Part shown: in pieces, positions 14,134-23,376 of the stretch
How positions within the stretch are numbered: the first letter of the stretch is position 1
How the letters are laid out: each line of letters starts with the position of its first letter
Source: Rhodospirillales bacterium
GTDB lineage: Bacteria > Pseudomonadota > Alphaproteobacteria > CACIAM-22H2
Assembly: GCA_947445225.1 (NCBI GenBank)
Contig: CANFCX010000006.1
Span: 1 to 49,281 of the forward strand
DNA: 49,281 nt
Direction of reading: 5' to 3'
Made by a program: the position numbers and the translations under genes
The notes under the pieces: generated by a model
What the model was told of the DNA's origin: nothing
The model's database searches: none
What the model saw: only the letters and a program-made list of their open reading frames with translations

Positions 14134-14846
14134 GCGCGCGCTGCCTCCTCCTGATCCGCCTGCCAGGCGCGGGCGATCTCGACGATGCGGTCGAAGGCCA
14201 TGGTTTCCGGCGGGCCGTCGTAACGCGCCACGATCCAGCGGGCCATCGCCAAATCCGCCGGTGTATCCACGGTGAGGTTGATGCCGGCATAAAGCCCCGG
14301 CGGCGCGGTCAGGTTGACGATGCTGAATCGGTCCGGGTGGGCGTAGATAAAACGCGTGACGTGCTCGCGGTCTTCGGCGTCGGTCGTTTCTCCGAGCACG
14401 CGCCGCAACGTCTCCGTCGCGACCACCTCAACGCTGTCGCCTGGCGGGAAGCTGCGCGGAAACACATTGGTCACCATTTCGGCGCCGCCCGCGTCATTGG
14501 CGGCGACGGCGCGATCGATCAGGACGGGATCGATAAAGGGGCTGTCGCCGGAGATACGCACGACATGCGAAAGGCCGAAGGCATCGGCACATTCGATGCA
14601 ACGTCGCAGCACATCGTCGGCTTGCCCACGAAACACCGGAACCCCGAGCAAACCGCCAAGGGTGGTTATGGGTGAATCAACTTCGCGGTCGCTGGTCGCC
14701 AGCACGAGAAGTTGCGGCGAGCGGGCGGCGGCGACGCGGGCGAGGACATGGGCGAGCAGCGGCCGGTCGCCGAGGGGTGCGAGCGCCTTGCCCGGTAGAC
14801 GGCGCGAATCGAAACGGGCGAGGACGAGGACGCCCGTCGTACTCAC
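14130..14846 (-). CDS. SpsF/NeuA-like cytidylyltransferase (nucleotide-sugar activation)
   Basis: A 238-residue nucleotidyltransferase. The start is GTG 14846, overlapping the TGA of the preceding epimerase gene (GTGA). The N-terminus has ARFDSRRLPGKAL, the nucleotide-binding signature of CMP-sugar and SpsF-type transferases (RxxSxRLPGK). VVRISGDSPFIDP carries the metal-binding Asp, and INLTVDTPADL is the conserved C-terminal segment. It would activate a sugar, probably with CTP; the exact sugar is not predictable. It sits in the sugar operon between the epimerase and the unrecognised small gene. There is no NeuB-type synthase nearby, so CMP-nonulosonate synthesis within this cluster alone is not supported. 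Confidence 0.85.
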   Translation of the reverse strand: MSTTGVLVLARFDSRRLPGKALAPLGDRPLLAHVLARVAAARSPQLLVLATSDREVDSPITTLGGLLGVPVFRGQADDVLRRCIECADAFGLSHVVRISGDSPFIDPVLIDRAVAANDAGGAEMVTNVFPRSFPPGDSVEVVATETLRRVLGETTDAEDREHVTRFIYAHPDRFSIVNLTAPPGLYAGINLTVDTPADLAMARWIVARYDGPPETMAFDRIVEIARAWQADQEEAARA

Positions 14847-15925
14847 GCCCCGGAGACCGAGCGCTTCGCCCGCTCCCATTCCGCGACGTACCATTCGCAA
14901 TACCGCTTGTAGCCGTCTTCGAGCGACCAACGTGCCTTGAACCCAAGCTCGCGTTCGGCGCGTTCGGTGGACAGCGTGCCGCGAATGGGCTTGTCCTCCG
15001 CGCGCGGACGCTCCTCCAACATTGCGCCCGGCACGACCGATTTGACCACTTTCGCCAGTTCGAGAATGGTGCGGGCGCGTCCAAACGTGATGTTGTAGGT
15101 GGACGACGAAATCGGGCCGACATGCAGCGCGAGCGATCGGACCAAACCGTCCACGAGGTCGCCGATATAGGTAAAATCAAGCCGGCCGTCCCCGCCGCCT
15201 TCGAGCAGCAACGGCTTTCCGACCAATGCGTTTTCGATGAACATTTGGCTCACCCGCCGGCTGATGCACCGTTCGCCGTAAAGCGCGCTCGGGCGGATGA
15301 TGGTCGTGCCGAGATTGTATTGATCGCGATAGACGCGAACCAGCCGCTCGGCCATGAATTTCGTGTTGGCGTAGATGCCCTTGGGCCGCGGCCGCGCGGA
15401 TTCATCAACCGTTGGCGTCTCGAAATCGCCATAGACCGTGGATGAACTCATCAGCAGGACCTGGTTGAGATCCTTGGCCGCGAACAGCCGGCTCAATTCA
15501 AGCACGTTGCGCAAGGTGAGCAACTGCACGTCAAAGCAGAGCCCGGGATTCTTGCGGGCGTCGACGGCGCTCGAAATCGCCGACAGATGCACGACCTTGG
15601 TCGGGAGGAATTCCTGAAACAGAAGTTCGATATCGAAAACATGGCGGGCGTCGGCGTTGCGAAGGTGGATGCCGGCCTCGCGCATCATCGCGAAGCGATC
15701 GAGCAAGAACGTCTGGTAGGCCTGGCGTTGGACGGGATGGCGTTCGCGTACATAGACGCTGTCGACCAGGCTGTTGAGCATGAGGTTGTCGACCACCATG
15801 ACCGCCGCGCCCAGTCGCGCGAGCTCCAGGGCCAGGTTATGGCCGATGAAGCCGGCGCCGCCGATGAGAATGATCCTCTGGTCGGCCAAACGCTGACGCA
15901 TGGAATCGTAAGGAATGTCGGTCAT
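14843..15925 (-). CDS. NAD-dependent epimerase/dehydratase (nucleotide sugar)
   Basis: A 360-residue extended SDR enzyme. The Rossmann motif is IGGAGFIGHNLA (about residues 21-32). SSSTVYGDFETPT and YANTKFMAERLV supply the Ser/Thr-Tyr-Lys set, and LDFTYIGDLVDGL is the conserved substrate-side segment. It epimerises or dehydrates a nucleotide-activated sugar. Its TGA overlaps the GTG of the cytidylyltransferase gene, and it follows the aminotransferase gene by 36 nt, so it is part of the operon. It differs clearly from the UDP-glucuronate 4-epimerase-like gene at 7.8 kb, so a distinct sugar is probable. Confidence 0.87.
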   Translation of the reverse strand: MTDIPYDSMRQRLADQRIILIGGAGFIGHNLALELARLGAAVMVVDNLMLNSLVDSVYVRERHPVQRQAYQTFLLDRFAMMREAGIHLRNADARHVFDIELLFQEFLPTKVVHLSAISSAVDARKNPGLCFDVQLLTLRNVLELSRLFAAKDLNQVLLMSSSTVYGDFETPTVDESARPRPKGIYANTKFMAERLVRVYRDQYNLGTTIIRPSALYGERCISRRVSQMFIENALVGKPLLLEGGGDGRLDFTYIGDLVDGLVRSLALHVGPISSSTYNITFGRARTILELAKVVKSVVPGAMLEERPRAEDKPIRGTLSTERAERELGFKARWSLEDGYKRYCEWYVAEWERAKRSVSGA

Positions 15926-15961
15926 GCGGGGTTCCCCCGGTTGTCTTTGGCGAGGATACGC

Positions 15962-17116
15962 TTAGAGCCTGGCGGCGGCGACAGCATCCTTGAATGCGCG
16001 AGCGACTCGGGCGGCGTCGTCCGCCGTGAGATGTGGACCGACCGGCAGCGAAATGGTCTGCGCCGCCAGCCATTCGGCGATGGGGAATTGCCCTGGGCGA
16101 TAGCCGTATTTGTCCCGGTAATAGCGGAACAGAGGCACGGCCGATGGGTAATGCACGCTCGATCCGATGCCGCGCGCCGTCAGGCCCGCCACGATCTTGT
16201 CGCGATCGAGCCGACCGTCGCGCGGCAATACCGCGTTCAGGCAATAATGGGACGACACGGCCTTGCCTTGGACGGCCTCGAATACGGTGACTTCGCTGAG
16301 GTCCGAGAGGCCGGCTTTCAGCACGCGGTAGTTTTCCGCGCGGCGTTTCTGGAAGGCGTCGAGTTTGTCGAGTTGGGCGAGCCCGACGGCCGCTTCGATT
16401 TCGTTCATGCGGTAATTGTAGCCAAGGGCATTGACGTCATAGATGCCCGGCCGCGCCCTTTCGCCGATCGCCTTGTCGTAGCCGAAGGCGCGCCGCTGGC
16501 GAATCGACGCCGCAAGCCCGTCGTCGTCTGTGGTCACCATGCCGCCTTCGATCGTGGTCATGTGTTTGATCGGATAAAACGAGAAACAAGCCGAATCTCC
16601 CAATGTGCCGACTTTGCGGCCGTCATAGACGGCATCCAGGGCCAGCGCCGCATCTTCGATGAGCAGCGCACCGGCGCGTTCGGCGACAGGTCGAATTCGA
16701 TCCATCTGGCAGGGCAGGCCGAGATAATGAACGACCGTGATCGCCTTCGTCCGCGTGGTGACTGCCGCGGCCACGCCCGCCGGATCGATGTTCCCGGAGT
16801 CGGGCGCGACGTCGACGAAGACCGGCCGGGCGCCGCAATATTCCGCCGCATGGGCGGTGGCGACGTGGGTCATCGCCGGCACGATGACCTCATCGCCGGC
16901 ACCGATGCCCTTGACGAATAGCGATAGGTGGAGCCCGGCGGTGCAGGACGACACGGCGATGGCATGGCGGGCTCCCGCCCGCTCGGCGAAGCGATGTTCC
17001 AGGTCGTGTGTCAGCGGGCCGTGAACCACGGTCGTGCCCTGAAGGACACGCGTCACGGCGGCGATTTCGGCGGCGTCGAACATCGGACGCCCGAAGGGGA
17101 TGGGATGGTCGCTCAT
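15962..17116 (-). CDS. DegT/DnrJ/EryC1/StrS-family sugar aminotransferase
   Basis: A 384-residue PLP enzyme that transaminates a keto nucleotide sugar to an amino sugar. VSSCTAGLHLSL binds the cofactor phosphate, LIEDAALALDA carries the Asp that contacts the pyridine nitrogen, and the Schiff-base Lys is in FSFYPIKHMTTIEGG (about residue 185). GYNYRMNEIEAAVGLAQL is the typical downstream signature. Start MSDHPIPFGRP at ATG 17116, 15 nt after the stop of the Gfo/Idh dehydrogenase. The dehydrogenase, this aminotransferase and the GNAT gene together form a canonical module for making an acylated amino sugar. Confidence 0.92.
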   Translation of the reverse strand: MSDHPIPFGRPMFDAAEIAAVTRVLQGTTVVHGPLTHDLEHRFAERAGARHAIAVSSCTAGLHLSLFVKGIGAGDEVIVPAMTHVATAHAAEYCGARPVFVDVAPDSGNIDPAGVAAAVTTRTKAITVVHYLGLPCQMDRIRPVAERAGALLIEDAALALDAVYDGRKVGTLGDSACFSFYPIKHMTTIEGGMVTTDDDGLAASIRQRRAFGYDKAIGERARPGIYDVNALGYNYRMNEIEAAVGLAQLDKLDAFQKRRAENYRVLKAGLSDLSEVTVFEAVQGKAVSSHYCLNAVLPRDGRLDRDKIVAGLTARGIGSSVHYPSAVPLFRYYRDKYGYRPGQFPIAEWLAAQTISLPVGPHLTADDAARVARAFKDAVAAARL

Positions 17117-17131
17117 TGGGTTTTGGTCCGC

Positions 17132-18133
17132 TCAGATGAGGTAGGAAACTTTCACGGTGCGCCGCTGCTCGATCGATTCCCAGGCAGCGAAACACACATC
17201 CATGACACGGAAAACGTCGGTAGCGGAGACCCCCGGCTCGCGGCCCTCGCGAATGGAGGCAACGAAGTCGGGGATGAGGTCGCCTTTCTCCATGCCCGGA
17301 TAGGGGGAGGAGTCCTGGGCTTCGTCCTCCGGGTTGTCGCCGCTGAAAATCTTCGCATGCGGGGTGTCGTTGATGAATGTCTTGCGTGTTCCATAGACGT
17401 TCAGCGCATGGAATTTCGGGCGCGCCGGGCCGAAATTCGTCGTGGTCTTGGCGAGCGCGCCGCCCTCGAACCGCAGCAGGTTGACGAGCAGGTCGTCATA
17501 GGGGTAGCGGCTACCGCGGGTCAGGATCTTGTTGCCCATGCCGCACACCTCCTCGACCTCGCGCCCGATCAGCCAGCGCATGAGGTCGATCAGATGGATG
17601 CCCCCGCCATAGGTCACGCAATAAAAGGCCATGCGACCCCGCCAGCCCTCGGTGATCTTATGCAAAATGTGATGAAGATAATCGGCCTCGAGGTAAACCA
17701 ACTCACCGAACTCGCCGGCCTCGATCATGTGCTTCAGTTTGAGGAAGCGGGGACTGGCCCGAAGAATTAGGTTGGAGCTGATGCTCCGCTTGCTGTCCTG
17801 CCAGGCGCGGCAGAGTTTGGCGGCATCGGCGCGGAACAGGGCTATGGGTTTTTCGATCATGACGTGTTTGCCGCCATTCAAGCAGGCGATGGCCTGCTCG
17901 GCATGGGCGTCGTCATAGGAACAAATTGAAACGATGTCGATGTCGGGCGCTTCGGCCAAACGCCGCCAATCGGTGAAACGGCGCTCGATGCCGTAACGAT
18001 CGCCGACCTCACCCAGCTTTTCGCTGTTGATGTCGCAAATCGCCACGACGTCGCAATCGGGTATGCGGCGATAGGTTCGTAGATGTTGCTCGCCGACACC
18101 CAACCCAATGACACCCGCGCGCAGCGCCTTCAT
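17132..18133 (-). CDS. Gfo/Idh/MocA-family oxidoreductase
   Basis: A 333-residue NAD(P)-dependent sugar dehydrogenase. The nucleotide-binding motif is GVIGLGVGEQHL (about residues 7-18). MIEKPIAL has the conserved EKP, and the C-terminal half (YLEADYLHHIL, GGGIHLIDLMRWL) is the alpha/beta substrate domain with the HxxD-type signature. It probably makes the 3-keto or 4-keto sugar used by the adjacent aminotransferase. The ATG overlaps the TGA of the GNAT gene (ATGA), so the two are coupled. The oxidised position is not predictable. Confidence 0.9.
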   Translation of the reverse strand: MKALRAGVIGLGVGEQHLRTYRRIPDCDVVAICDINSEKLGEVGDRYGIERRFTDWRRLAEAPDIDIVSICSYDDAHAEQAIACLNGGKHVMIEKPIALFRADAAKLCRAWQDSKRSISSNLILRASPRFLKLKHMIEAGEFGELVYLEADYLHHILHKITEGWRGRMAFYCVTYGGGIHLIDLMRWLIGREVEEVCGMGNKILTRGSRYPYDDLLVNLLRFEGGALAKTTTNFGPARPKFHALNVYGTRKTFINDTPHAKIFSGDNPEDEAQDSSPYPGMEKGDLIPDFVASIREGREPGVSATDVFRVMDVCFAAWESIEQRRTVKVSYLI

Positions 18134-18876
18134 TCGCGGCGAGCCATGGGGGTCAGGTGAAAGGTGACGGCCTCATCGATGACGGCGAAGTTAAATCGCC
18201 GATAAAGCCGGTTGGAGGGGAGGTTCGAGGCCTGTGTGCCGGCGCGCATCGTTTCGGCGCGGCCGTCATAGTGTCGCAGGGCGCCGGCGATGAGCGCCGC
18301 ACCCAACCCGCGCCCGCGTTTGTCCTGGGCGACGGCGATCAGATCGATGGTCACTTCCGGCCCAGCCAACTGGCAGATAACGAATCCGGCAATCGCATCG
18401 GCTTCGCACGCGACATGGATCGAATCGGCCCGGCCGTCGAAAGCATTGGCCACCCATTTCGCCTTGATTTCATCCGCGGCCGAACGTTCGATTTCCGGGT
18501 CGACATGATAACGATCATAACCGAATGCCGTGCGCGCGATAGCGACACATGCCGGCGCGTCGATCGCGGTCGCCGGTCGGACGCCGGGCGGCACCGACGG
18601 CACCGGTCGCAGCGGCCGGCGGTAGGTGACGAGAGTTTCGATCGGCCGGAAACCGCCACGCTCAAGGGCGGCGGCAAGATCGTGACGGGCGGCGGGGATA
18701 CGACAGGATACGAGGAGAGCTCCGGCGCGACGGGCCTCCTCGACAAGGAAAGGCACCTCGTCACCGCCGGGGCTGGAGGCCTGCGCCGGAAACACCAATC
18801 GAAAAACCGGCCCTCCAAGAATCCCCGATTCAAAGGGCTCTGGCCGCAGCATGGCGGCGGAGGTGTCTGCGCTCAT
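18130..18876 (-). CDS. GNAT-family N-acetyltransferase
   Basis: A 248-residue protein. ATG 18876 is chosen because it overlaps the stop of the methyltransferase gene (ATGA); an in-frame start at 19008 would read deep into that gene. The C-terminal half is a GNAT domain: PEVTIDLIAVAQDKRGRGLGAALI holds the acetyl-CoA-binding RGRGLG, followed by RAGTQASNLPSNRLYRRFNF. The N-terminal half resembles a second, degenerate GNAT half, as in WecD-like sugar acetyltransferases. In this operon it probably acetylates the amino sugar made by the DegT enzyme. Substrate unproven. Confidence 0.82.
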   Translation of the reverse strand: MSADTSAAMLRPEPFESGILGGPVFRLVFPAQASSPGGDEVPFLVEEARRAGALLVSCRIPAARHDLAAALERGGFRPIETLVTYRRPLRPVPSVPPGVRPATAIDAPACVAIARTAFGYDRYHVDPEIERSAADEIKAKWVANAFDGRADSIHVACEADAIAGFVICQLAGPEVTIDLIAVAQDKRGRGLGAALIAGALRHYDGRAETMRAGTQASNLPSNRLYRRFNFAVIDEAVTFHLTPMARRE

Positions 18877-19688
18877 CGCGAGGCGGTTGGCGCGAGGAAG
18901 GCGCGAAGCGTGAACTTTCCGCTCGGTTCGCGCAGCCGGCGCACAAGATCGGCGCGGCAACCGGCCCGTACGGCGAGCAGGCTCAACGATGTCAGGCTGA
19001 AGGCGCAATGATGTTCGACAAAAAACTCTTCGCGCTCCGGCCCCGCCGAAAGCGCCGCCTCGCCGTCGGGAACTTCCACATAAACGATGCCACCCGCCGC
19101 GGCCAGGCCAGCGGCCCGGGCCAGCATCTCGACCATATTCGGAACGTGTTCGATCACCTTGTTCAGGGTGACAAGCGTGAAGCGGCCGGAAATCGACGCG
19201 GTCATGAAGTCGCCACAGATCGCGGTCATTCCGGCGACGTCATTGGCGTGGCGCACGGCGGCCGGATCGGGATCGATTCCCGCGCATTGCCATCCCGCTG
19301 CGCGCATCGCCGCCCCGAATACGGCCAAGCCGGACCCAACATCGAACAAAGTGCGTGGCAGTGCGCCGGTATGTTCACCCGCATAGGCCAGTATCTCGGC
19401 GACCCTGTGCCGATTGTCTGAACGATCCAGGGGAAGCGCCATGATCCGGTCGAAAACCTGCCGCCGGCGATCGCCATAGGTGGCGGTGGCGTAGGCACCG
19501 GAGTAGATGCGCTCCAGGTCCATGGCATGGCGATTAACGACATGGCCGCAATTGTCGCATCGCCACAACTCGCGGCGATAGTTGGGCAGTCCGAAATCGG
19601 TTTCGCCGGGCGGCGGCGCGGTGAATCGATGGCGGAAGCTGTGGCTCGCGCCGCCACATAAACCGCAGGGTTCAACCGAGGACTTCAC
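18873..19688 (-). CDS. SAM-dependent methyltransferase with N-terminal zinc-ribbon-like cysteines
   Basis: A class I methyltransferase of the Methyltransf_23 type, about 271 residues. The N-terminal PCGLCGG and RCDNCGHV form two CxxC pairs, a probable zinc site found in sugar C- or O-methyltransferases. The SAM site is TLFDVGSGLAVFGAAMR, then GIDPDP; VIEHVPNM is the motif after the third strand. GTG 19688 is preferred because it lies 11 nt after the amidotransferase stop; ATG 19742 would add 18 residues and overlap that gene by 43 nt. Its target is probably a sugar of the operon, but could be a polysaccharide end group. Confidence 0.85.
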   Translation of the reverse strand: MKSSVEPCGLCGGASHSFRHRFTAPPPGETDFGLPNYRRELWRCDNCGHVVNRHAMDLERIYSGAYATATYGDRRRQVFDRIMALPLDRSDNRHRVAEILAYAGEHTGALPRTLFDVGSGLAVFGAAMRAAGWQCAGIDPDPAAVRHANDVAGMTAICGDFMTASISGRFTLVTLNKVIEHVPNMVEMLARAAGLAAAGGIVYVEVPDGEAALSAGPEREEFFVEHHCAFSLTSLSLLAVRAGCRADLVRRLREPSGKFTLRAFLAPTASR

Positions 19689-19699
19689 CGCCGCCAAGG

Positions 19700-20815
19700 C
19701 TACCAAATCCAGTCCTCGATCAGGAAATCCGGGATCCGCCATTTGCCCTGGTCATTGAGCCAAATTTCCCGGTTGCGGAAGCCTTCGGTCACTTCCCAGA
19801 ACCAGGCTTCCTTTTCGCCGAGAAATTCGCAGAAGGCCGCGATGTCGGCGGTTGGCACCTGGAGGCCGATCTTTCTCAATGTCGCCACGGCCTCGTCCCG
19901 GGTAAGGAGACCGTAGCGGATTTGCGAAGACAGATTGTCGAAAGCACGCGTGAACCCGAATTTGTACCATTTCAGGAAGTGATGGATCGACAGGAACTGG
20001 CAGTCGAGATCCGCGAACGCCCAGACCCCCACCTTGAGATAATCGCTGCCGGAAACGAAACCGCGGGCGGCGGCCAGACGCGCGTTCTCGAACGAGTTCC
20101 ACTTGAAAAATGTACCGAGAAAGATCGAATCCGTCATGAATTCGGCTTCGTCGGGAAGCTGATACGGCGTCAATTCTTGCGCCGTGAGACCTTCCGCCCC
20201 GACCCAGTCATGCGGGCGCGTGCCGAAAAGGCAGCCATGTTTGGCCAGCCAACCGCGATCCAGCCTCGTCGCGAACCGCTCTTCTTCCTTGCCGCCATAT
20301 TCAAGCTGCGGGTTCTCGCCCCAGACGATGAGGGGTATGCGGAGCTTGACCGCCAGGCGCAGCGGAATCGCGAACAAAGCCATGTGCATGGGCAGCCCGC
20401 TAATGCCCTTGCGGGTGAAGGCGGCCTTCATGAAACGGCGCTCGACATCGGGGTCGATGCTGTAATCGATATGATCGATGCCCAGCTTGGCGATCATGCT
20501 GTCGAGGTTGCGCTGGCCGACCGCGGTGCGCCCGGGCGTGCGCCATGTAATTCCCAGAACCTTCAGCCCGGCTTCCTGGCACCGAATCACTTGATACCAG
20601 CTATCTTTGCCGCCGCTGACCGGAACGATGCAATCGTAACCCGTGGACCGCGCCTTGGCCGATGCCACGATTTCCTGGAACGCCGCGGCTCGGGCGGGCC
20701 AATCGATTCGCGTTTCCTTGTCGGCATGGCCGGCGCAGGCGGAGCAAACGCCACGATCATCGATGGTTATTCCCGGGCGCGTATCGGGCAATATGCAGCG
20801 GGAGCAGTATCTCAT
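19700..20815 (-). CDS. N-acetyl sugar amidotransferase (PseA/WbpG-like)
   Basis: A 371-residue PP-loop ATPase that installs an amidine on an acetamido sugar in the known family members. The N-terminus has MRYCSRCILPDTRPG and CSACAGH, four cysteines probably binding zinc. The PP-loop is VPVSGGKDSWYQ (about residue 67). IVWGENPQLEYGG and SDYLKVGVWA are family segments. It is the first gene of the minus-strand sugar operon. In the WbpG system the ammonia comes from HisH/HisF-like partners; none is encoded here, so ammonia supply is unexplained. Product: perhaps an acetamidino sugar (inference). Confidence 0.88.
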   Translation of the reverse strand: MRYCSRCILPDTRPGITIDDRGVCSACAGHADKETRIDWPARAAAFQEIVASAKARSTGYDCIVPVSGGKDSWYQVIRCQEAGLKVLGITWRTPGRTAVGQRNLDSMIAKLGIDHIDYSIDPDVERRFMKAAFTRKGISGLPMHMALFAIPLRLAVKLRIPLIVWGENPQLEYGGKEEERFATRLDRGWLAKHGCLFGTRPHDWVGAEGLTAQELTPYQLPDEAEFMTDSIFLGTFFKWNSFENARLAAARGFVSGSDYLKVGVWAFADLDCQFLSIHHFLKWYKFGFTRAFDNLSSQIRYGLLTRDEAVATLRKIGLQVPTADIAAFCEFLGEKEAWFWEVTEGFRNREIWLNDQGKWRIPDFLIEDWIW

Positions 20816-20941
20816 TGAGATCGCATCCGGTCCGTTGTTTCGGCGGGAGGCCGTGTTTCACGATAGGGCGGTGATGGTAAATGATTGGTTTATGAATATG
20901 GCCGACGTCGCGTCCCGCGGCGGCCGGGACGCGGCGCAGAT

Positions 20942-20959
20942 TGTTGCATGTTTGCAACA
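20942..20959. promoter_or_regulatory. Perfect 7-bp palindrome between divergent genes (operator candidate)
   Basis: TGTTGCA (20942-20948), TGTT spacer, TGCAACA (20953-20959) form an exact inverted repeat. It lies in the 264-nt region between the minus-strand sugar operon (start 20815) and the plus-strand EPS remnant (from 21080), where a regulator of both could bind. Nothing else in that region is recognisable; I could not assign a promoter confidently. Confidence 0.5.
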
Positions 20960-21079
20960 TGCCTAGCGGCGATTAGCTGTATTCGTAATTTCCCTTGAGT
21001 TGGGCGGGCCTGCGCGGTGAAGCCTATACCCTAGCTTGGGTCACATCCGCGACCAGAGAGTGGGGTTTCCATTTCAAGA

Positions 21080-21323
21080 TTGACGAAGCTGTTTGCCAGG
21101 GCCGCGATCATCGGTCTCGCCATGTTCGGCGGCGCCCAGCCCGTGTTCGCGCAAACACTCACAGAAGCGGAGGCCGTTGCGGCTCAAGCTCTTGATGGAA
21201 ATCGGTGCCAAAGTCGGCATCGCCATATCGCAAGTCAATACGCGCAAACAGTCCCGCTACGGATACAATTATGGCGGCTATGGCGGGTACTATGGCAAGT
21301 ACCGGGACTACTACGTCGACTAA
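21080..21323 (+). pseudogene. Fusion scar: export-protein signal peptide joined to the Tyr-rich tail of a Wzc-like kinase
   Basis: From TTG 21080 one frame encodes a clean signal peptide (TKLFARAAIIGLAMFGGAQPVFAQ), like those of Wza/KpsD export proteins, then EAEAVAAQAL. From about 21183 a second frame encodes KLLMEIGAKVGIAISQVNTRKQ and then a tail with ten Tyr in about 20 residues, ending GKYRDYYVD and TAA at 21321-21323. The tail matches the C-terminal autophosphorylation cluster of bacterial tyrosine kinases such as Wzc, and EAVAA-LKLL joins smoothly if the frame is shifted. So an N-terminus and a kinase C-terminus appear joined by a deletion plus frameshift. About 600-700 residues of kinase are missing. 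Confidence 0.6.
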
Positions 21324-22038
21324 CAAGCGAAGGGATTTAGGGCGCGAGAATCGTCCCAGGCATTGGACATCTTATGTCGTCCCGCTCCTGGCGGGCGCGA
21401 TCGGTGTCCTTCTCCTGATATTGGCGGTCCCGCGGCTCATCGCCGCCTTCATCGTTTTACCGACGGCGCCAATTCTTCAGGACGTCAGGGATGGCAAGCC
21501 GGTAAGTCGAGAAGACCTCGAACGGCTGTCCGTAAGCCAAATAAGGGCGGCCGGTTATGTGGATTGGGGCCAGCTGTGGACCGATGCCGCGTTGGCCGAC
21601 GTGACGGCGTCGCTGCTCCCCTCCATACCCATCGAGGAGAAGCTGCAACTCCTGAACCGAGCGGACGATTCGCTTCGAAAGGGCCTGTCCCTCGCGCCCG
21701 CGAACACCTTTGGTTGGGCAAGGTTCGCCTATGTGCGATTTGTCCTTGGCGACCGCAAACAGGCGGCCGACGCGATCGAAATGTCGATTCTGACGGGGCG
21801 TTACGAACCGCGGCTTGCCCCCTCCCGGCTCGACCTGGCGTTTCTTGTTTGGCAATCATTCAGTGAAGACGCCCGCGATTTGCTTGCCGAGCAAGTGCGG
21901 TGGCAGTGGAAAAAGCAGCCCGACGACCTGCTGCGCTCCGCGATTAGGCGCAACATGGCTGCAATTGTGCGCGAACAGCTGGAGGAAGAAGAACGACCGG
22001 CATTTGACAAGAGGGTGTTGGCGCTTTCGTCGCGTTGA
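21271..22038 (+). CDS. Single-pass membrane protein of the EPS locus, function unknown
   Basis: About 255 residues. The start is uncertain: ATG 21271, 21280 or 21289, all overlapping the Wzc-like tail in another frame; 21271 is used here. After a polar N-terminus one strong membrane segment follows (SYVVPLLAGAIGVLLLILAVPRLIAAF, about residues 39-64). The remainder is helical and soluble, with a TPR-like pattern (NRADDSLRKGLSLAPANTFGWARFAYVRFVLGD). I recognise no family. Similar small membrane proteins often accompany polysaccharide export kinases, but this is contextual only. The overlap with the kinase tail suggests it was the next gene of the former EPS operon. Confidence 0.7.
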   Translation: MAAMAGTMASTGTTTSTNKRRDLGRENRPRHWTSYVVPLLAGAIGVLLLILAVPRLIAAFIVLPTAPILQDVRDGKPVSREDLERLSVSQIRAAGYVDWGQLWTDAALADVTASLLPSIPIEEKLQLLNRADDSLRKGLSLAPANTFGWARFAYVRFVLGDRKQAADAIEMSILTGRYEPRLAPSRLDLAFLVWQSFSEDARDLLAEQVRWQWKKQPDDLLRSAIRRNMAAIVREQLEEEERPAFDKRVLALSSR

Positions 22039-22260: not shown

Positions 22261-23376
22261 ATGTGGGGGAAATTTCGGTGGCCCCGGCCGGTGGTAGCGC
22301 TGCCGGCATCGATCTACGGCGCCGTTGCGACGGCGTTTCTGATTCCGGTCATTCTGCCACCGGCCGGACGTACCCCCGTCGATCCTCCACAACTGGCTGT
22401 GTCAGCGGGCCTCGGAGCCTCGCTTGCCCTCGACCTATCTTTCGGTAGCGAGAACGCTGCGGCGTCGGACGATGAACGTGAGCGCGGTATAGCAGCTTTC
22501 ACGCGCGGCCGACTGCCCGGCCAGAGTCGCGAAACCGAACACGACCGCGGCCAATGGCTCACCGCGGGGCTGCCGTGGAGATACGGCTCGGCCGAGCCCG
22601 AACGGCCGCTTTCAGCCCAGGTCGCCAGGGCGCAGGGGTTGGCGAGCCAATTTGCCGACCTTGGCTACACGCTCGACAGCGTTCGCGAAGAGGGCGGTTT
22701 GGTTCCCCGCCACTCCTTGGTTCGGCTGCCGAGAGAACTGCTTGGGCTCGATGTTCCCGAGATCCGTAAGCGGGTCTTTTTGACTTTGGTCTTGCCCCTG
22801 GTTCTCCAGGAAAACGAACGCATCCTCACTCAACGCGAGCGTCTAACCATCCTCCGGGATCGGATTGCCGATGGCGGATCGCCGGGGCCGGAGGAACGGC
22901 AATGGGTGCGGGAACTCTGCATCCAATATCGCCTCGCCGGTGATGACATCGACGAGCTGCTCCGGCGCGTGGACGTTATCCCACCGTCATTGGCCCTGGC
23001 GCAGGCGGCGGTGGAGACCGGTTGGGGCACCTCGCGTGTGGCGCAGCGCGGGCACGCCCTCTTTGGGCAGATGCGACAGGGCCGGCGTCCCGGCCAGTGG
23101 GTGGTTCGTACCTTCGGCGACTTGCCGGCGGCGGTCGCGGCCTATGCCACGAACTTGAATACACACTGGGCCTATCGGCGGTTCCGCGACCAGCGCGCCG
23201 AAATGCGGCAACACGCGCAAGAACCCGATGGCTACCGGTTGGCGTTATTGATCGATCTCTATTCGGAGAAGCGGTTCGAATATATTCGCGACGTGCGCAC
23301 CGTCATTCGCCACAATCGGTTGGACGCCCTCGACGCCGCTCGCCTCGGCGATCGGGCAGTATTGCCGCTGACCTAA
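22261..23376 (+). CDS. Bax-like glucosaminidase-domain protein
   Basis: A 371-residue protein. The start is ATG 22261, with AAGGGGGAG just upstream. A hydrophobic N-terminal segment (PVVALPASIYGAVATAFLIPVIL) indicates a membrane anchor or uncleaved signal. The C-terminal half (about 230-350) is the Bax/FlgJ-type glucosaminidase domain: DVIPPSLALAQAAVETGWGTSRVA, with the catalytic Glu, then HALFGQ and FGDLPAAVAAYATNLNTHWAYRRFR. It would cut glycan strands of peptidoglycan. A 222-nt gap separates it from the membrane protein gene; I see no regulatory signal there that I would defend. Confidence 0.87.
   Translation: MWGKFRWPRPVVALPASIYGAVATAFLIPVILPPAGRTPVDPPQLAVSAGLGASLALDLSFGSENAAASDDERERGIAAFTRGRLPGQSRETEHDRGQWLTAGLPWRYGSAEPERPLSAQVARAQGLASQFADLGYTLDSVREEGGLVPRHSLVRLPRELLGLDVPEIRKRVFLTLVLPLVLQENERILTQRERLTILRDRIADGGSPGPEERQWVRELCIQYRLAGDDIDELLRRVDVIPPSLALAQAAVETGWGTSRVAQRGHALFGQMRQGRRPGQWVVRTFGDLPAAVAAYATNLNTHWAYRRFRDQRAEMRQHAQEPDGYRLALLIDLYSEKRFEYIRDVRTVIRHNRLDALDAARLGDRAVLPLT

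Follow-up and report, generated by a model that had tools for sequence, protein, structure and literature searches.

In Vibrio, the gene order vpsM-vpsN-vpsO-vpsP corresponds to a porin, Wza, Wzc and VpsP. Wzc is a BY-kinase and polysaccharide co-polymerase of the PCP-2a type (TIGR01005, an exopolysaccharide transport family; PF02706 and PF13807 together with a kinase domain), and in E. coli its tail is the autophosphorylation site, which enters the kinase active site of the neighbouring subunit (PMC8285477). The window, by which we mean the whole 49,281-nucleotide stretch analysed here from a Rhodospirillales bacterium (contig CANFCX010000006.1), resembles export operons of this type in that the end of wzc lies immediately before a vpsP-like gene, but the porin and wza are missing from it, as is almost the whole of wzc. 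What is encoded at 21080-21323 corresponds to Wzc in its last 46 residues, where it has both the tyrosines of the tail and, close to the C-terminus, the conserved YY; in contrast to Wzc it has no membrane part, Walker motifs or kinase domain, and it is not a working Wzc. This segment is very probably the scar of a deletion that spared vpsP, and as such it is ordinary gene decay, unusually well documented.

Two frames make up the scar. The first opens at a TTG (21080) with LTKLFARAAIIGLAMFGGAQPVFAQTLTEAEAVAAQ and runs for 86 codons to 21340, whereas the +1 frame stays open until 21323, where it ends in LKLLMEIGAKVGIAISQVNTRKQSRYGYNYGGYGGYYGKYRDYYVD and a stop codon. The start of a secreted protein is predicted at 21080..21151 on the forward strand, with LTKLFARAAIIGLAMFGGAQPVFA-Q as the signal peptide. 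This peptide is probably real, because it passes a simple sequence rule (charged n-region, hydrophobic core and A-x-A-like site) that is met by just 1.2% of the ORF starts in the window, against 0.4% in shuffles; 21080 is also the only start between 20900 and 21300 that passes. Third-position G+C is 0.92 over 21080-21151 in the first frame and 0.74 over 21183-21320 in the second, so that the two parts are each coding-like in their own frame. Between them lies a junction zone (21152..21184, forward strand) across which the coding frame shifts by +1, the phase of codon-position G+C placing the switch between about 21152 and 21183. Then come, at 21183..21323 on the same strand, the final 46 codons of wzc, with the Tyr-rich tail, and the stop codon. 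A Pfam scan of both frames returned no match, including to Wzz, GNVR and PF02563. When the Wzc match was continued back through the first frame, with TEAEAVAA aligned to TpREavla, it gained 6 bits; this extension was rejected, as 83 of 2000 random extensions (4%) gained as much, and for this reason the exact joint is placed only to within 21152..21184.

The tail at 21183-21323 is, as judged by homology, a remnant of Wzc. A profile HMM built from 19 Wzc tails of the class, run against all six frames of the whole window, matched the tail frame at E=3.1e-11, with the next best match at 1.5; a class profile search gave 6.4e-17, and the homology spans 21183-21320. A 696-position Wzc profile aligns here only at positions 652-696, its last 45, and the kinase domain with its Walker motifs is therefore absent from the scar. 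Aligned with the Wzc consensus, the tail has one residue missing and two extra. Used as a query, 43 residues of the tail matched the C-termini of ORFs of 728-771 aa in genomes of the same class, along with one frame-broken ORF of 366 aa. A second match in the source genome itself (C1:12888; 34%) was discarded as chance, since that region codes for ABC-type permeases. The translations and the HMM thus bear out the sequence-only reading, which had placed a signal peptide in one frame and a Wzc-like tyrosine tail in the shifted frame at these same positions, and the phase change in codon-position G+C agrees with its view that two ends had been joined out of frame.

That reading had overlooked the intact vpsP-like gene directly after the tail (21292..22038, forward strand), which encodes a membrane protein with a weak TPR-like stretch and makes the case for a scar firm. 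In all 19 intact loci that were read, a distance of 15-143 bp separates the end of full-length wzc (669-868 aa) from a vpsP-like homologue after it, and thus the window keeps the end of wzc and vpsP in their ancestral order. The two wzc genes checked from these loci both carry Wzz, GNVR and AAA_31, one scoring above the TIGR01005 cut-off and the other just below it. A family search at one locus placed a BBP2_2 porin and Poly_export/SLBB (Wza) upstream of wzc, and a small secreted head gene stands first in several intact loci. Of the 385 class genomes, 41, among them the source genome, contain matches to the vpsP-like ORF (21340-22038 and upstream) at E<=1e-8. The NF038257 VpsP model recognizes 5 of the 7 members of the vpsP-like alignment (best 7.5e-9) and not the window copy, for which neither Pfam nor NCBIfam gave a match above threshold. 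A joint query with the VpsP-like and amidotransferase proteins over named genomes returned only amidotransferase relatives and no closer intact operon, and none of the 25 loci of these relatives contained wzc or vpsP-like sequence. The VpsP-like gene is a widespread partner fixed behind wzc in alphaproteobacteria, and its function is little described; a literature search on this metagenome-assembled genome (MAG), on vpsM-P genes and on Wzc pseudogenes in Alphaproteobacteria found nothing. That the gene is intact here means either that the decay is recent or that vpsP has another use.

The strongest rival explanation holds that the wzc tail and vpsP were retained as a selected unit after the rest was lost, with the tail either carrying the vpsP start or encoding a small Tyr-rich partner peptide of VpsP. 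In its favour, every in-frame ATG of the window's vpsP (21271, 21280 and 21292) lies within the tail, and usual start codons are found only there. Most intact loci, however, can start vpsP past the wzc stop, and no convincing ribosome site precedes the tail's own ATG at 21195. A second genome bears on the same question. The tail profile gave 128 matches in 96 of the 385 class genomes, and only three of these lie in frames shorter than 150 aa: the one in the window (79 aa), a frame-broken full-length wzc in G367 (114 aa), and a second, independent wzc scar in G231, which belongs to another alphaproteobacterial genus (121 aa; G231:C15; L127 3633-4701 / L131 12133-13198). As in the window, a truncated wzc end stands directly before an intact vpsP-like gene in G231, here as the last 115 wzc codons about 20 bp upstream of it, and about 6.2 kb is missing relative to the congeners G397 and G320. 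The G231 scar differs from that in the window in the 115 codons kept, in having no fused signal-peptide start that could be seen, and in the existence of intact congeners. Its wzc remnant and the end of the intact G397 protein (773 aa) share 91% identity. The dN between this piece and the intact congeners is 0.058-0.067, as compared with 0.052 between the two intact ones (dS being saturated), and the G231 deletion is thus recent or the piece has been kept. Independent retention of both elements in G231, and a tail as conserved there in protein sequence as in intact congeners, would speak for a selected unit, but two cases in 385 genomes could arise by chance, and of the two congeners of the source genome at least one (G001) has lost the tail and vpsP, and the other (G002) is without either. 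We consider a retained unit improbable, and its having arisen at least twice in alphaproteobacteria equally so. The sequence-only reading had named, as evidence against its own account, a related genome in which this short gene is intact and conserved; no conserved short gene like 21080-21323 was found in the congeners or among the 385 class genomes.

The source genome (G000) is a single MAG of 157 contigs, 97.5% complete, in which neither PF02706 (Wzz) nor PF02563 (Poly_export) was detected at E<=0.01, controls being detected. Neither domain was found in the congeners G001 (CAMDDQ010000017.1) and G002 (SHVT01000001.1, Baikal-deep-G46), and several other family members have them. A 755-position Wzc model found only one short P-loop ATPase per genome (frames of 327, 265 and 327 aa in G000, G001 and G002, respectively) and, in G000 only, the tail. 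Loss of most of a wza-wzc-type locus, as originally proposed, is upheld by this absence and by the position of the wzc end before vpsP.

The left flank of the locus is an N-acetyl sugar amidotransferase gene of the WbuX family (19700..20815, reverse strand; TIGR03573, E=7.7e-87), which is common to all three genomes and 95-97% identical in the congeners, the left flank being kept in G001 and G002 at 92-95% identity. G000 and G001 form the closest pair by identity (94.6/92.9%), and G002 falls outside (91.3-92.2%). The intergenic segment that separates the scar from the divergent amidotransferase gene (20816..21079, forward strand), which probably holds the promoter of the lost operon, is kept in G002 as far as 21034 by blastn. 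G001 lacks the equivalent of about 20.95-22.04 kb of the window, and G002 lacks 21.03-23.64 kb, the equivalents of 21034 and 23637 being separated there by 127 unrelated bases. Since 20967-21034 is common to G002 and G000 (81%, E=5e-13) and missing from G001, at least this part was deleted in G001. On the right, a Bax-like glucosaminidase gene (22261..23376, forward strand; PF01832) is kept in G001 and missing in G002, where the gap also removes the 3' part of an M15 dipeptidase gene (L048 8478-8919; an ORF of 117 aa as compared with 187 aa in the window). Over its N-terminal ~100-120 residues (window 22261-22620) the glucosaminidase aligns only within the genus, other relatives aligning from residue ~104-124 onward.

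No intact operon is present at this site in either congener, and both show other deletions. Of the comparison with related genomes that the sequence-only reading had proposed, the gene order was recovered from loci of other families, and an intact locus in congeners was not. Stepwise loss would account for the three different outcomes at this locus, and the parts missing from G001 and G002 may once have held the whole operon. An assembly or sequencing error, in which the species has an intact operon and a contig of the MAG joins two distant parts of it, might be suspected of a single metagenome assembly in 157 contigs, where a joint could be faulty, but Wzz and Poly_export are missing from all of a nearly complete genome and from both congeners, which differ by deletions at the same site, and we regard such an error as very unlikely. 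A genuine small secreted Tyr-rich protein made by a programmed +1 frameshift would suit the coding-like codon composition of each part in its own frame, but it is scarcely credible given that the tail matches wzc and occupies the wzc position before vpsP, that no relative with such a short gene was found, and that a cytoplasmic kinase tail would have no evident use after a signal peptide.

By the deletion-scar explanation, and from the intact loci of other families, we infer that the ancestor had, between the sugar amidotransferase and glucosaminidase genes, an operon of the order (head gene) - BBP2_2 porin - wza - wzc - vpsP. A deletion, in one step or several, would have spared vpsP and brought the ~46 codons at the end of wzc, out of frame, behind the initial ~24 codons of some gene upstream that encoded a secreted protein. 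Since the exporter, the membrane part and the kinase with its Walker motifs are gone, the tail could no longer be phosphorylated and a Wza/Wzc channel could not form; polymer export would presumably be lost as a phenotype.

The parent of the signal peptide may be one of three genes of the lost operon (wza, the BBP2_2 porin gene or the small head gene) or an unrelated one. The first three correspond to the secreted products encoded upstream of wzc in intact loci (Poly_export/Wza, the porin and the small head protein, whose gene is present in at least seven of them), and they cannot be told apart from just 24-40 residues of signal peptide. The proposal that the ends of wza and wzc had been fused therefore stands for the wzc tail and not for the assignment of the signal peptide to wza, the other two products being possible too. 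The PF02563 (Wza) domain is absent after the signal peptide, which stands there alone, and a head-gene profile scored a nonsignificant 5.8 bits against it. The head gene of many intact operons encodes a small, secreted, poorly conserved protein with an S-P-rich end (L091 3557-4009, L095, L081), and the single one scanned had no family match.

The locus points to a loss of exopolysaccharide export, piece by piece, in a genus of freshwater alphaproteobacteria with small genomes, three members of which are in three different deletion states. It also shows that a short ORF may have a plausible signal peptide and yet be a scar, for which annotation as a secreted protein is unwarranted. An intact sugar cluster adjoins the scar (14843-20815, reverse strand), though the genome lacks Wzc/Wza export; it comprises genes for an SDR dehydratase, a DegT aminotransferase, a Gfo/Idh/MocA oxidoreductase, a GNAT protein, a methyltransferase and the WbuX amidotransferase.
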